Source of the DNA: a virus
IMG/VR virus record: IMGVR_UViG_3300042987_000942
Location: 1-22,141 of that record
Strand: one strand, 5' to 3'
Length of the DNA: 22,141 bases
The position numbers and the translations under genes were made by a program. The notes under the pieces were generated by a model. It did not search any database, was not told the DNA's origin, and saw only the letters and a program-made list of their open reading frames with translations. Position 1 is the stretch's first letter. Each line of letters begins with the position of its first letter. Of this stretch, positions 3,058 to 20,146 are shown in pieces.

Positions 3058-4065
3058 ATGTTTATTGTTTTAGAAGGTGCTGACGCTTCTGGAAAGACAA
3101 CGCTCGCTGCGGCTGTAAAAAGTCAGCTTCAACGAGACTTTCCCGGTCATACTATTCACGAGTATCACAAGGGTAAGCCAGAAGAGCTGTCGCGCCGATG
3201 GGCTCTTCACGAGTACGCTGTAAGCCTTGAAAATGTTGACGTTCTCAGCAGACTGTCGATTGCTGACAGATGGCACTGGGGAGAAGTGACCTACGCTCCA
3301 CTAAAAAGACCTGACACAAACACAGACGGATTTGGTCTTCTTGGCATCGCAGGGTGGAGATGGGTAGAGTTGTTCATGGCTTCTCGAGGGATGACTCAAT
3401 TCTGGGTATACCAGCCGTCGAATGTCGTAAAGCGCAGAATAGAAAGCCGCGGAGACGATTTTGTCGAAGTAGACGAAGTAGAACAGATCATAGAGTACTA
3501 CAAAACAGCAAGCGCAAGCACGTATCTAACAGAGTCTAAGGTGCAGATTCCAGAAGGACTACAATACGTCAAGTCAATTGCAGCGGCAGTCATTTCAATG
3601 GCAGCCGATCGTGCCTCAGAGGTCGAGCTTCTTGCTGAGTTTCCTGAATACATCGGCGGGCCAAATCCGATACTGCTGCTTGTCGGTGACAAAAGAAATG
3701 AGCCGAGCGACACTATTCTGCCGTTCATGCCCGTAAATGGCAACTCAGGCGAATTTTTAATGTCGTCTTTGCCCGAAAGATCGTGGCGACGCGTAGGCAT
3801 TGTAAACGCTGGTGACGTAAATGGCGATAGACTGCGTAAATTGATTGGAGTGCTAAACCACCCAAAGGTAGCTGCTCTTGGCAGATCAGCAGAAAAGATC
3901 GTTTCTGACGCTGTATCTGACACCGAAAGATGGGAAGTTTTTCCGCACCCGCAACACGTTCGCAGATTCAACAACAGCTCAAAGGACGAGTATGGGCTTG
4001 CTCTATCGCATTACATGTACTCAAGACCGGAAGGATACATTAAGTGGACGCTTCAGCGCGACTAA
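3058..4065 (+). CDS. Deoxynucleoside monophosphate kinase (thymidylate-kinase type) fused to a UDG-like domain
   Basis: The N-terminal half (1-180) is a thymidylate-kinase-type P-loop enzyme: MFIVLEGADASGKTT holds the Walker A loop (residues 7-15, Lys13), ADRWHWGE at 69-76 matches the DR-Y/H motif of this fold, and RRIESRGDD at 126-134 looks like the lid. The C-terminal half (about 203-305) is not part of thymidylate kinase. PILLLVGDKRNEP (204-216), a VAALGRSAEK helix (271-280) and FPHPQHVRRF (295-304) follow the order of uracil-DNA-glycosylase-fold motifs (G-x-x-P-G region, LG-x-x-A, HP-x). The canonical GxxPG water-activating loop is not intact, so glycosylase activity is doubtful. The downstream TS-fold gene overlaps by 22 bp, suggesting this kinase phosphorylates that enzyme's product. 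Substrate is inferred. Confidence 0.75.
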   Translation: MFIVLEGADASGKTTLAAAVKSQLQRDFPGHTIHEYHKGKPEELSRRWALHEYAVSLENVDVLSRLSIADRWHWGEVTYAPLKRPDTNTDGFGLLGIAGWRWVELFMASRGMTQFWVYQPSNVVKRRIESRGDDFVEVDEVEQIIEYYKTASASTYLTESKVQIPEGLQYVKSIAAAVISMAADRASEVELLAEFPEYIGGPNPILLLVGDKRNEPSDTILPFMPVNGNSGEFLMSSLPERSWRRVGIVNAGDVNGDRLRKLIGVLNHPKVAALGRSAEKIVSDAVSDTERWEVFPHPQHVRRFNNSSKDEYGLALSHYMYSRPEGYIKWTLQRD

Positions 4066-5092: not shown

Positions 5093-5580
5093 TGACAGCA
5101 GACAATCGCCCTTCGTGGGATGAAACGTGGATGTCAGTAGCTAAAACTATTGGCCTGAGATCAAGATGCTCGCGCGCTGGCATGGGCGCTGTTATCGTTT
5201 CAAATGAGCAGCGGTTGGTTGCTACTGGCTATAATGGACCAGCGGCCGCGTGGCCGGAGTCCGGAGAGTGTATTGAATGGTGTGCGCGTGCGAAAGGCGA
5301 AGCCCCTCTAAATAATCTGTACGACGAGTGCCCGGCAATACACGCGGAGGCAAACGCTCTTTTATATGTTGACAGAAGCAAGAGCACCAACGCGACTGTG
5401 TACGTCACCTCACCGCCGTGTATGCAATGCGCTAAGTTAATATCAAACTCAGGCGCGTCTCGTGTAGTTTGTCGTATTGGAGAGCAGGACATGCACAGAA
5501 GGCCAGAGACAGTTCTTGAGTACCTCAAAAAGTGCGGAATAGAAGTCGTAATTATGAAGGAAAATAATGACAACAAGTGA
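5092..5580 (+). CDS. Deoxycytidylate (dCMP) deaminase
   Basis: This is a zinc-dependent deaminase that converts dCMP to dUMP. The zinc and proton-shuttle residues are His84-Ala-Glu86 (CPAIHAEANALL) and Cys110/Cys113 (SPPCMQCAKLI). The N-terminal region RSRCSRAGMGAVIVSNEQRLVATGYNG is typical of the T4 cd/ComEB-type family, and 162 residues is a normal length. CxxxC residues around 60-64 (GECIEWC) may add the second zinc seen in some phage forms. I chose the ATG at 5092, which overlaps the previous stop; a GTG at 5089 would add one residue. It overlaps the polymerase gene by 14 bp. In the T4 scheme it feeds the thymidine pool while dCMP is diverted by the neighbouring enzyme; it could also act on hydroxymethyl-dCMP. 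Confidence 0.93.
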   Translation: MTADNRPSWDETWMSVAKTIGLRSRCSRAGMGAVIVSNEQRLVATGYNGPAAAWPESGECIEWCARAKGEAPLNNLYDECPAIHAEANALLYVDRSKSTNATVYVTSPPCMQCAKLISNSGASRVVCRIGEQDMHRRPETVLEYLKKCGIEVVIMKENNDNK

Positions 5581-11805: not shown

Positions 11806-12378
11806 ATGAGTACACTAAATTGGGGGGAGCTCGTCAAAGAAGCTGGCGACGCCACCGGATATGACCCGCTGCCAGACGGCGACTACGATCTCGTAATCGT
11901 AGAAGCGCAGGCTAAGGTCACACAGACTGGCAAGACGATGTTCGCCATCAAGGCGCAAGTGCAGACTGGCGCCCACGCTAAGCGTCTGGTGTGGGACAAT
12001 TTGGTAGTTTCAACCGATAACCCGAACGCGCTCGGCATCTTCTTCCGTAAGATGAACGCGCTTGGGCTTGGAAGAGACTTCTTTGCCGGCAACCCGACAA
12101 ACGCCCAGATTGAGCAAGCGGTCAAGGGTCGCCAGTTCCGCGCGCAAGTTGGCAGCCGTGTTTGGCAGGGCCAGAAGAAGAATGAGATTAAGTCGTACTA
12201 CGCTTTGGCAGCTTCTTCGACTGCGGCGCCTGCTCCGGCGCCTGCTCCGGCGCCTGCTCCGGCGCCTGCTCCGGCGCCTGCTCCGGCTCCGGCCGCAGCG
12301 CAGCAGCCCATCGTCGAGCAGCAGCCCATCGTCGAGCAGCAGCCGCAGACTTCCAACCCGCCAGCAGCTCCGTTCTGA
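11806..12378 (+). CDS. DUF669/SSB-like single-stranded DNA-binding protein with Pro-Ala linker
   Basis: A 190-residue protein. Residues 1-135 have the DUF669-type pattern: DPLPDGDYDLVIVEAQAKVTQTGKTMFAIKAQV, consistent with an OB-fold, then FFRKMNALGLG and a strand ending KNEIKSYYAL. Residues about 138-163 are an almost pure Ala-Pro run, followed by two QQPIVE repeats and the end PPAAPF. Bacterial SSBs also have a flexible tail ending in Pro-Phe that recruits partners, though their tips are acidic (DIPF) and this one is not. The gene follows Sak4, whose known partners are such proteins. A 36-nt gap with Sak4 holds AGAGAGACAGG as the ribosome site. Transcription probably ends at the hairpin 12391-12432. 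Confidence 0.78.
   Translation: MSTLNWGELVKEAGDATGYDPLPDGDYDLVIVEAQAKVTQTGKTMFAIKAQVQTGAHAKRLVWDNLVVSTDNPNALGIFFRKMNALGLGRDFFAGNPTNAQIEQAVKGRQFRAQVGSRVWQGQKKNEIKSYYALAASSTAAPAPAPAPAPAPAPAPAPAPAPAAAQQPIVEQQPIVEQQPQTSNPPAAPF
12226..12336 (+). repeat. In-frame minisatellites: five 12-bp units and two 18-bp units
   Basis: GCGCCTGCTCCG is repeated five times without a change (12226-12285) and encodes Ala-Pro-Ala-Pro. CAGCAGCCCATCGTCGAG then occurs twice in tandem (12301-12318 and 12319-12336), with a partial third copy, and encodes QQPIVE. Perfect identity suggests recent expansion by slippage; both unit lengths keep the frame. Confidence 0.95.
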
Positions 12379-12390
12379 TCAATCAAACTT

Positions 12391-12432
12391 CGCGGCCGTC
12401 CGTTTGAACTACTGTTTAAGCGGGCGGCCGCG
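12391..12432 (+). terminator. GC-rich hairpin after the SSB-like gene
   Basis: Positions 12391-12405 pair with 12418-12432 as a 15-bp stem with only two G-U wobbles, around a 12-nt loop. It begins 12 nt after the SSB-like stop codon. The downstream TTGTACTATT is only moderately U-rich, so it may be a weak intrinsic terminator or an mRNA 3'-end stabiliser. TACTAT (12436-12441) directly after it could be a -10 box for the next gene. Confidence 0.6.
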
Positions 12433-12455
12433 TTGTACTATTACAAAGGTGCGTA

Positions 12456-13664
12456 ATGAAAATACTTATGACAGGTTTTACTGCTCTTCAAATAAACACA
12501 GAGCATAAAACAATTAAAAAGATCGACGTCCCGGCTTCAATTGTAGACGCGCTGACACAAAGCGGGCACGAAGTAGACTGGCGGCGTGTAACGCCTGGAG
12601 AAGACTTAACAGGTTATGACGTAATCTGGGTAAATCTTGGCCCACTTAATTCTTTGAACGGTCGCCAGGGCGCGATGGGCGCGCTCTATGCGTTGTCGTC
12701 TGGGGTGCCTGCGGTTGGGTTTTTTGACGACTGGCAGTTTGCACAGGTGTTCAACGCGTGCAGATCGCTCGTTCGTCACCCAGAAAGTCTCTATAAGTAC
12801 CTGTTGTCTGGGTCATCCGTTCGCGGCGACGAAGAAGCTACATACTACTCGTACGACGACGCAAAAGCCGCGCTAGATAGAATACTGCAAACAAATCCAG
12901 ACGCTGCAAAGAAATGCGCGATTGGCAGATACTTTTTTAACGACACAGATGAAAACATAAAACAGTACGAAGGCCAACTAGTCGCCACAGGCGCCGCACT
13001 TCTTGCTGAACGCTGGAGTGCCGGGCTTGTGCCAGTGTGCCCAATGTACTCTTTCGGCGATCGATCTCTTGTAAGAAAAAGAATGCCGAAAGAAATGGCA
13101 CCTATTGAAGCGCTCGATCCAAGTTCGACAATCTACAATATTCTGTCGTCGTGTGACCCTGCTCCATTTGAGTCAAAACAGAGATCTTGGGTTCTTGGCG
13201 CGCTAATGCCGCACGACACTTGGCTTGAAAAGAAAAAACCAGAGTGGCCGGTAGAAATTATCGGTAGTAGAAAACTAATACGTAAGTTTGGTGGACAACG
13301 ACTTGACAGTGAAGAAGATGTTCTAGCTTTTTACAATAACTACTGGGGCATTTTATCTCCCCCGTACCCGCACGCCGGGAGCGGCTGGTGGAGAAGTAGG
13401 TTTATGTACTCCGCCCGCGTTCGGTCAGTTCTTGTTACTGACAAAGGAGAAGGTGCCCCGCTTGGGTCTGCGTACAAATTGACAATAAAAGATGTCGAAG
13501 CAATGTCAGACTCAGAGCTCGCCAATGCGGCGACAGCTCAGGCGGACGCTCTTCGGCGGCACATGCCGACTTACGATTCGTTCGTCGCGCAGTGCAATCA
13601 CATCGTCAACAGAGCATATAGCGAAGACAAGGGACTAAAGATTAACCCAGACGGCACGCGATAA
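12456..13664 (+). CDS. GT-B-like glycosyltransferase, candidate DNA (hydroxymethylcytosine) glycosyltransferase A
   Basis: This 402-residue protein starts MKILMTGFTALQ, has a long N-terminal Rossmann-like half with YDVIWVNLGPLNSL and AVGFFDDWQF, and a C-terminal Rossmann half with RSWVLGALMPHDTWL, VEIIGSRKLIRKFGG, LSPPYPHAGSGWWRSRFMYS and VLVTDKGEG. That two-domain order, with Arg residues before the last helices, is the GT-B plan and recalls T4 beta-glucosyltransferase (similar N-terminus, a central GG/GS strand, a late R-x-x-E/R segment). I cannot show homology without a search. The next gene is a divergent paralogue. ATG 12456 has AAAGG 6 nt upstream. With a dCMP hydroxymethylase candidate in the genome, DNA glycosylation is the leading idea; tail protein or cell-wall sugar transfer is the alternative. 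Confidence 0.6.
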   Translation: MKILMTGFTALQINTEHKTIKKIDVPASIVDALTQSGHEVDWRRVTPGEDLTGYDVIWVNLGPLNSLNGRQGAMGALYALSSGVPAVGFFDDWQFAQVFNACRSLVRHPESLYKYLLSGSSVRGDEEATYYSYDDAKAALDRILQTNPDAAKKCAIGRYFFNDTDENIKQYEGQLVATGAALLAERWSAGLVPVCPMYSFGDRSLVRKRMPKEMAPIEALDPSSTIYNILSSCDPAPFESKQRSWVLGALMPHDTWLEKKKPEWPVEIIGSRKLIRKFGGQRLDSEEDVLAFYNNYWGILSPPYPHAGSGWWRSRFMYSARVRSVLVTDKGEGAPLGSAYKLTIKDVEAMSDSELANAATAQADALRRHMPTYDSFVAQCNHIVNRAYSEDKGLKINPDGTR

Positions 13665-18399: not shown

Positions 18400-18750
18400 A
18401 TGAAAGATTCACGAATTGGCGAGTCACTTTGGCTCGAGTGGTTTGGCTACTACTACGAGTCGCGCGATGAAGACTCAGTAGTTTTCTATACAAACGACCA
18501 CGTAGATCTTGACAACGATGTTGTCAAACGAGCACTAGCTTCTGCTGTCCAGCGCGAAGGCATAGCAGTCTCTCTTGGAGAAGGCTACAAAATGGTCGAA
18601 TCTGCAAAAATACATACTGGGTACTCAGGAGAATTTGAAGACGAGTTGCTACCTGCCGAGTGTGACAATAGTGGAGAGACGTACTACGGAGACACTCTTA
18701 TCAATGTCACACCGACAACTTGGGTAGAAATCGTATGCCAAAGCACATAG
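18400..18750 (+). CDS. Acidic protein of unknown function, possibly from a leaderless mRNA
   Basis: This 116-residue protein (MKDSRIGESLWLEWFGYYYE...) has several aromatic strands, an acidic middle (DEDSVVFYTNDHVDLDNDVV) and the end TPTTWVEIVCQST. There is no signal peptide, membrane segment or known motif. Its ATG sits directly against a perfect inverted repeat and lacks a ribosome site. It overlaps the WhiB-like gene by 16 bp, so the two are probably co-expressed. Size and acidity are compatible with a host-takeover or antirepressor protein, but that is speculation. Confidence 0.68.
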   Translation: MKDSRIGESLWLEWFGYYYESRDEDSVVFYTNDHVDLDNDVVKRALASAVQREGIAVSLGEGYKMVESAKIHTGYSGEFEDELLPAECDNSGETYYGDTLINVTPTTWVEIVCQST

Positions 18751-19220
18751 ATAGCTGGTCTTGGAGAGAAAACGCCGAGTGCGCGAAACCAGAAAATTCT
18801 CACTTAAAACCGTTTTTCTTTTCTGACGTGCCTCGAGAAAAATACGATGCTAGAAATCTGTGCTACACGTGTGACGTTAGAAAAGACTGTCTTAAATACG
18901 CACTAGAAAACAAAGAGTTGTGGGGTGTATGGGGCGGAAAAGATGAAGCTGACATTAGAAGAGCTTTGTCAGTTTCTCATGAAGGAAAAGAAATTAGAAG
19001 AACTAGGTTTCCAAACTGCCCGTACTGCGGGGCACGGCCAGGGAAATTGACAGTTATTGTGGCGCCTACGCCAGAAGGCGGGAGATGGTCTACAATGAAA
19101 CTCGTGCAGTGCACCGCGTGCGAGTTTACTTGGAGAAGTAGAACTAGCGCGAACGCCGTGACAGCGTATCACGCGGGGAAGAAAAAATCTAAGAAGCCTG
19201 CTGGTCCGCAGACTTCTTAG
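18735..19220 (+). CDS. WhiB-like iron-sulfur regulator with added C-terminal zinc ribbon
   Basis: Residues 1-75 are a WhiB domain: Cys16 (NAECA), Cys43-x-x-Cys46 and Cys52 (NLCYTCDVRKDCLKYAL) form the 4Fe-4S site, followed by the turn GVWGGKDE (64-71). WhiB proteins are confined to actinobacteria and their phages and bind the host primary sigma factor. Residues 85-135 add CPYC...CTAC (Cys95, Cys98, Cys126, Cys129), a zinc-ribbon layout not usual in WhiB, and the tail is Lys-rich. Phage WhiB proteins can block host WhiB function or exclude other phages. I chose ATG 18735 over TTG 18720; neither has a strong ribosome site. The stop lies in the palindrome shared with the opposite-strand gene. 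Confidence 0.9.
   Translation: MPKHIDSWSWRENAECAKPENSHLKPFFFSDVPREKYDARNLCYTCDVRKDCLKYALENKELWGVWGGKDEADIRRALSVSHEGKEIRRTRFPNCPYCGARPGKLTVIVAPTPEGGRWSTMKLVQCTACEFTWRSRTSANAVTAYHAGKKKSKKPAGPQTS
19189..19220 (-). terminator. Intrinsic terminator of the minus-strand operon, shared by two convergent stop codons
   Basis: On the minus strand, 19220-19209 pairs with 19200-19189 (8 bp, one C-A mismatch, 4 bp) with loop and closing bases between. It is followed at 19188-19181 by A, six Us and C. This is a textbook intrinsic terminator for minus-strand transcripts. On the plus strand the U-tract becomes an A-tract in front of the stem and the far side (CGTCTATTTC) is only mildly U-rich, so plus-strand termination is weaker. 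Confidence 0.82.
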
Positions 19221-19347
19221 CGTCTATTTCACTGTTCAGTGCTGCAATTGTTGCTTCTAAAATAGCAATTCTCTGGGCTTGCTGAGCTACCTGTGAAGAA
19301 AGACTATCTACAATCTTTTGAACGTCAAGTTGCAAGTTATCGGCCAT
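19189..19347 (-). CDS. Small coiled-coil protein (52 residues)
   Basis: This protein reads MADNLQLDVQKIVDSLSSQV, then AQQAQRIAILEATIAALNSE, then IDAKKSADQQAS. Hydrophobic residues fall at heptad positions (V9, I12, V13, L16, V20 and I27, I29, L30, I34, L37), so it should form a coiled coil. It starts 13 nt after the minus-strand glycosyltransferase stop without a clear ribosome site, which points to translational coupling. Its stop codon lies in the terminator stem and overlaps the WhiB-like gene by 32 bp. Small coiled coils of this type sit next to lysis or tail genes in many phages. The function is unknown. Coding status is supported by heptads, spacing and the terminator. Confidence 0.62.
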   Translation of the reverse strand: MADNLQLDVQKIVDSLSSQVAQQAQRIAILEATIAALNSEIDAKKSADQQAS

Positions 19348-19360
19348 GCTGCTATTTTAC

Positions 19361-20146
19361 TTACTTAAGCCCAAGAGTGCTGCATCTTTTGTCAATTAAG
19401 TCCGAGTATTTTGAAGAGATCTGCTGAACTAATTCCTGTATCAATGCGTTTCTCTGTCGCTGCGTAGTGTGGTCGCTAATGTGCTGCTTATACAGCATTT
19501 TTTTGACGTGTGCGCATTTTGTTGTTAGAAATGTTCTAATGAACAGTTCGTAGTCGTCGGCAACTGTCAAATTTTTATTGTGCCCGTTGAGAGATCTATA
19601 GGTGTCTGCTCTCCACGCGCGCACGTGATTAGGTGCCGAAACTATGTGTTTTAGCGTTGTAGCGTTCAACTCCGGCGATGACATAACCCATACCTTGTGC
19701 TCGTCTGACCAGTAGTCTGAGCCATAACCAAATCCCCACCCGGGTGGGTACCTCCCAGACTGGCCATTTGGCAGTAGTTCACACCAGTCAGAGTAGACAA
19801 ATCCAACTGACTCGTCTTTTGAAAACTCCTCATGTATAAGTTGAAGAGCGTCACTTGTTAGTTCGTCGTCGTGGTCTAGTTCAACTAGTATGTCTCCGTT
19901 TGAAACCATAAACCCGCGGCGTTTTACTTCACCGATTGATCCAGAATGAACATGAGATTTGTGAGCAGATATTTTGTATCTTTCGTCAGACGCGAACCCG
20001 TAGACCTGACGCCACACGGCGTCGGTAGTTGAGTCGTCCCATACAACCCACTCCCAGTCTTTAAACGTTTGTGACTTAAGAGAAGCCCAGGTTCTTGCTA
20101 GAACGTTGTAGTCAGTGTTGTACGTTGGAGTGATTACAGAAATCAT
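19361..20146 (-). CDS. Family 2 (GT-A) glycosyltransferase
   Basis: This 261-residue protein has the GT2 start MISVITPTYNTDYNVLARTWASLKSQTFKDWEW, nucleotide-binding VVWDDSTTD (34-42), GSIGEVKRRGF, the metal site ELDHDDE (89-95, DxD type) and an acceptor-side ADDYELFIRT (about 216-225). The last residues are helical and basic. It would transfer a sugar from a nucleotide-sugar to an unknown acceptor. It differs in fold from the two GT-B-like proteins encoded at 12456-14692. It lies downstream of the endolysin, so tail or capsid glycosylation, or change of the host envelope, is as likely as DNA modification. The ATG at 20146 has AAGAAAG upstream. Confidence 0.88.
   Translation of the reverse strand: MISVITPTYNTDYNVLARTWASLKSQTFKDWEWVVWDDSTTDAVWRQVYGFASDERYKISAHKSHVHSGSIGEVKRRGFMVSNGDILVELDHDDELTSDALQLIHEEFSKDESVGFVYSDWCELLPNGQSGRYPPGWGFGYGSDYWSDEHKVWVMSSPELNATTLKHIVSAPNHVRAWRADTYRSLNGHNKNLTVADDYELFIRTFLTTKCAHVKKMLYKQHISDHTTQRQRNALIQELVQQISSKYSDLIDKRCSTLGLK

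Follow-up and report, generated by a model that had tools for sequence, protein, structure and literature searches.

We identified a hairpin at positions 19189-19220 of the window, the 22,141-nt stretch of viral DNA analysed here, which probably (at a rough probability of 0.68) acts as a one-way intrinsic (Rho-independent) terminator of minus-strand transcripts running through a glycosyltransferase gene and a 52-codon gene. The assignment is confined to the minus-strand genes because a C.A mismatch makes the stem weaker on the plus strand, where there is also no U tract. The gene overlap, the stem, the U tract, the asymmetry between the strands and the conservation of the gene pair can be read directly from the sequence, and in all respects that sequence can test, the minus-strand signal fits an intrinsic terminator, with RNA polymerase predicted to terminate at 19182-19187. 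This terminator would lie wholly within the 32-nt overlap of the 52-codon gene with a convergent WhiB-like gene (Table 1), such that one set of bases would provide both C-termini, both stop codons and the stem, with the U tract just past it.

Table 1. Features at the convergent junction of the window, and matching arms in relatives
Feature	Position	Strand	Description	Basis
32-nt overlap and hairpin	19189-19220	-		fold, shuffle tests, terminator scan
A plus six-U tract of the terminator-like site	19182-19188	-		sequence, terminator scan
WhiB-like gene	18735-19220	+	ATG 18735 (TTG 18720 also in frame); stop TAG 19218-19220	ORF, Pfam, alignment
52-codon coiled-coil-like gene	19189-19347	-	tail AKKSADQQAS-stop; stop TAG 19191-19189	ORF, homologues, third-position bias
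Glycosyltransferase gene	19361-20146	-	upstream of the 52-codon gene, same strand	PF00535, E 2.9e-16
L041 arms hairpin	3926-3947		CTAAGAAG-4 nt-CTTCTTAG, both TAGs at outer ends, dG -7.5; distant lineage	
L042 arms hairpin	5459-5480		CTAAGAAG-4 nt-CTTCTTAG, both TAGs at outer ends, dG -7.5; distant lineage	
L033 shortened arms	5431-5444		CTAAG-4 nt-CTTAG	

The sequence evidence identifies both convergent genes as real members of an overlapping pair, since the WhiB-like protein has a Pfam match (PF02467, E 1.8e-15) and the small gene has homologues and third-position bias. Homologues of the 52-residue protein occur at the matching position in relatives (identity of 56-60% to L002, L004, L014 and L017), and its matches to known families are weak, with SlyX at E 0.0024 falling below Pfam's cut-off. 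Within the group formed by L004, L014, L017 and L018, both genes vary chiefly at third codon positions. The WhiB-like protein closes with a Lys-rich tail, KKKSKKPAGPQTS, directly before its stop, and its last residues (KKPAGPQTS) align in register with those of the small protein (KKSADQQAS). Past the WhiB domain it also has a second conserved cysteine set (CPYCG ... C..C), found in all relatives aligned. The glycosyltransferase gene is presumably co-transcribed with the small gene and would share the transcript that ends at the hairpin.

The overlap between the two genes is exactly one inverted repeat, which reads CTAAGAAGCCTGCTGGTCCGCAGACTTCTTAG on the plus strand and has one gene's TAG at each end. 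On the minus strand it folds into a stem of 13 contiguous pairs, one of them G.U, with arms CUAAGAAGUCUGC and GCAGGCUUCUUAG closing a 6-nt loop, GGACCA (dG -20.3; none of 200 shuffles was as good). Directly 3' of this stem is ATTTTTTCTT, one A and then six U, the latter being antisense to two Lys codons (AAA AAA, 19182-19187) of the WhiB-like gene just before the arm. The minus strand thus combines a stable stem-loop, with a loop in the 3-8 nt range of intrinsic terminators, and a U tract 0-2 nt past the stem, and this is the best terminator-like site in the window. The first-pass annotation had located the arms, both TAG stops and the six Us of the minus strand correctly; the arms are longer than it gave, and one A precedes the Us.

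Shuffled sequences indicate which part of this arrangement is unusual. Hairpins with a U-rich tail and a dG of -20.2 or lower arose 0.02 times per shuffle (200 dinucleotide shuffles of the whole window), and bare stems of at least 13 pairs without a U tail occurred in 40% of 40 shuffles. Since bare stems are not rare in shuffles and equally strong stems with a U tail are, what stands out is the combination of stem and U tract, placed exactly where the genes end. The minus-strand value was also the top one of the 21 junctions tested and was equalled in 0 of 150 shuffles. No match for the junction hairpin was found in Rfam. Elsewhere in the window, a far stronger hairpin of 19 bp (12391-12432, plus strand; dG -39.5 including flanks, z -9.1 on that strand) starts 12 nt past an ORF at 11806-12378 and has no U tract; when 12300-12460 was searched in three related records, the only match was one of 21 nt at the ORF end.

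A rival reading is that the palindrome terminates both convergent transcripts. The plus strand does fold, with 12 pairs and a dG of -14.9, and intrinsic terminators lying between convergent genes are often bidirectional (PMC7566282). However, the G.U pair of the minus strand becomes a C.A mismatch on the plus strand, the tail that follows, CGTCTATTTC, is poor in U just past the stem and contains no U tract, and the pairing of U tract and stable stem that a bidirectional terminator would show on the opposite strand is not found at 19189-19220. The best plus-strand score at this junction, obtained by the rule applied to the minus strand, was no better than shuffles, and the closest candidate on that strand to have a U run lies 261 nt beyond the WhiB stop. 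We rejected two-way termination on the mismatch and the tail, and consider it improbable; the related idea of one set of bases carrying coding, stop and termination signals is supported by the sequence for the minus strand and not for the plus strand. The distant candidate (19481-19498, plus strand), a hairpin GTGCTGCTTATACAGCAT followed by TTTTTTGA, is antisense inside the glycosyltransferase gene and is a possible weak stop for plus-strand read-through; none was present at the matching place in the relatives scanned. Another role for the junction hairpin would be to protect the mRNA 3' end against exonucleases, with termination brought about by Rho or elsewhere. A stable 3' hairpin would give such protection anyway, which speaks for this role, but a U6 run immediately following the stem is what characterises an intrinsic terminator, and we regard this reading as very improbable.

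The coincidence of stops and arms can be understood from the phase of the overlap, 123:132 in the notation of PMC2174442. In this phase, an NCT-AAG of either gene spells TAG in its partner, and AAGAAG faces CTTCTT. The WhiB-like gene contains TCT-AAG-AAG and the small gene GCT-AAG-AAG, each of which includes the partner's TAG, and NCT-AAG likewise holds the opposite stop in L041, L042 and L033. Because AAG-AAG tails face each other in this phase, the eight outer pairs and the alike C-termini can be explained without invoking selection for a palindrome. The similar C-terminal codons pointed out by the first-pass annotation (AAG AAG ... TCT TAG) follow from the overlap of Lys-rich tails in one phase rather than from the palindrome.

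The same considerations speak for a rival account, in which two Lys-rich tails meeting end to end produced the hairpin incidentally, without any part in termination. The outer arms would follow from the AAG-AAG codons and the complementarity of NCT-AAG and TAG, and relatives cope with weak hairpins or none. Just one DNA sequence can encode both peptides (about half of random 33-nt stretches in phase 123:132 are equally fixed), so the stem is not tunable apart from the peptides. Lys-rich tails nevertheless leave the inner CTGC/GCAG stem unexplained; these pairs are seen only in the window's lineage and strengthen the stem from about -8, the value of the L041 form, to -20. Chance would also seldom produce so strong a stem with a U tract (0.02 per window), and here it stands exactly at the gene ends. 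On balance we view a functionless by-product as unlikely, though worth keeping in mind. For the one-way terminator that we favour, the likely origin is an overlap of two Lys-rich tails in phase 123:132 that produced a facing AAG-AAG inverted repeat, which the inner CTGC/GCAG stem would then have made into a strong hairpin.

To place the junction among relatives, we ran two viral-contig scans, with the WhiB protein and with its alignment, which gave 46 distinct junctions including the window. A profile search found the small convergent gene at 27 of these, that is, at 26 distinct related junctions besides the window. The overlap at these 27 junctions is 4 nt (CTAG/CTAA) in 8, between 14 and 65 nt in 16 including the window, and absent in 3, and every one of these 16 longer overlaps is in phase 123:132. 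The closest relatives (L002, L004, L014, L017 and L022) have the 4-nt convergent overlap, CTAG or CTAA, described in PMC2174442, whereas the window has 32 nt instead.

The strong stem is absent from all relatives at the related junctions compared, and the full-stem pattern from the viral contigs scanned, so that selection on the strong stem has no comparative support. The arm pattern occurs in nine stretches of these contigs, of which only those of L041 and L042, identical to the window's eight-base arms, are at the matching WhiB/small-gene junction; the others are in or beside unrelated genes. Three relatives with 4-nt overlaps (L004, L014 and L017) have a hairpin rich in A and U whose loop contains the stops (dG about -7 to -8), and at most remaining junctions terminator-like hairpins are weak or absent. 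The junction thus does not behave as a conserved RNA element with a homologous stem kept by paired substitutions, its arms recurring only in L041 and L042 and, shortened, in L033. Paired substitutions in related phages had been suggested as a check, but in most relatives there is no homologous stem on which to score them, and the complete hairpin is confined to the window's lineage.

The WhiB tree puts the window and L041 in different clades, and elsewhere in the window's clade, the genes at junctions found to have the small gene overlap by 4 nt or not at all. The tails of the two are nonetheless alike (KSKKP..S and AKK..AS before the stops). Since the tree groups the window with short overlaps, apart from L041, the long overlap looks like either a later lengthening of the two genes or a tail from shared descent or exchange that was lost in between. 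The virus fragment is related to a lake-water phage of actinobacteria; among known phages, DNA similarity gave no near match and one distant one, DSL-LC01, in which the WhiB gene overlaps a glycosyltransferase gene instead and the junction hairpin is missing.

Terminators within convergent overlaps are known from E. coli, where a Rho-independent terminator serves one gene in 19 of 58 overlaps and both in 2 (21 of 58 in total) and likewise lies inside the coding sequence of the overlap (PMC2174442). Unlike those cases, the window hairpin and its overlap have identical limits, with TAG at each end; in the literature searched, with its partial coverage, we found no description of a single terminator stem with a stop codon at either end, which is weak evidence of novelty. 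Bidirectional terminators of the Zymomonas mobilis type (PMC7566282) also use one hairpin at a convergent junction, with an A-rich flank as the other strand's U tract, but they are intergenic and serve both strands, whereas the window hairpin is coding and would serve one.

The position of the hairpin also bears on how well it could work. In E. coli, ribosomes repress terminators situated near the end of a translated ORF, or close to or just beyond its stop, as Li et al. (PMC4824070) showed with tR2. The window hairpin likewise ends at a stop codon, where a ribosome can block folding, and we counted this against the window terminator, as its entire stem is coding and finishes at the small gene's stop. 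A ribosome following closely behind the polymerase should weaken it, and translation of the small gene may antagonise the terminator. Where translation keeps pace, the terminator would be weaker and transcripts would continue, in antisense, into the WhiB-like gene; otherwise, transcription would terminate. A broader and unlikely extension is that the Lys-rich C-terminal tails of the two convergent genes in this phage group are a coding device that supplies, in one fixed phase, the partner's stop, the terminator arms and the U tract, with strength set by translation of the 52 codons, such that translation would control antisense transcription into the WhiB-like gene.

The window is a new, tidy example of a known arrangement, the terminator inside a convergent overlap, and its 32-base overlap hairpin is neat but ordinary genome compaction. 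It offers a compact case in which coding sequence and terminator would share every base of the stem, and its relatives show how variable such a junction can be, with overlaps from none to 65 nt and a single phase for all those above 4 nt. Should the terminator prove sensitive to translation, the junction would provide a simple switch governing antisense transcription into a regulator gene.
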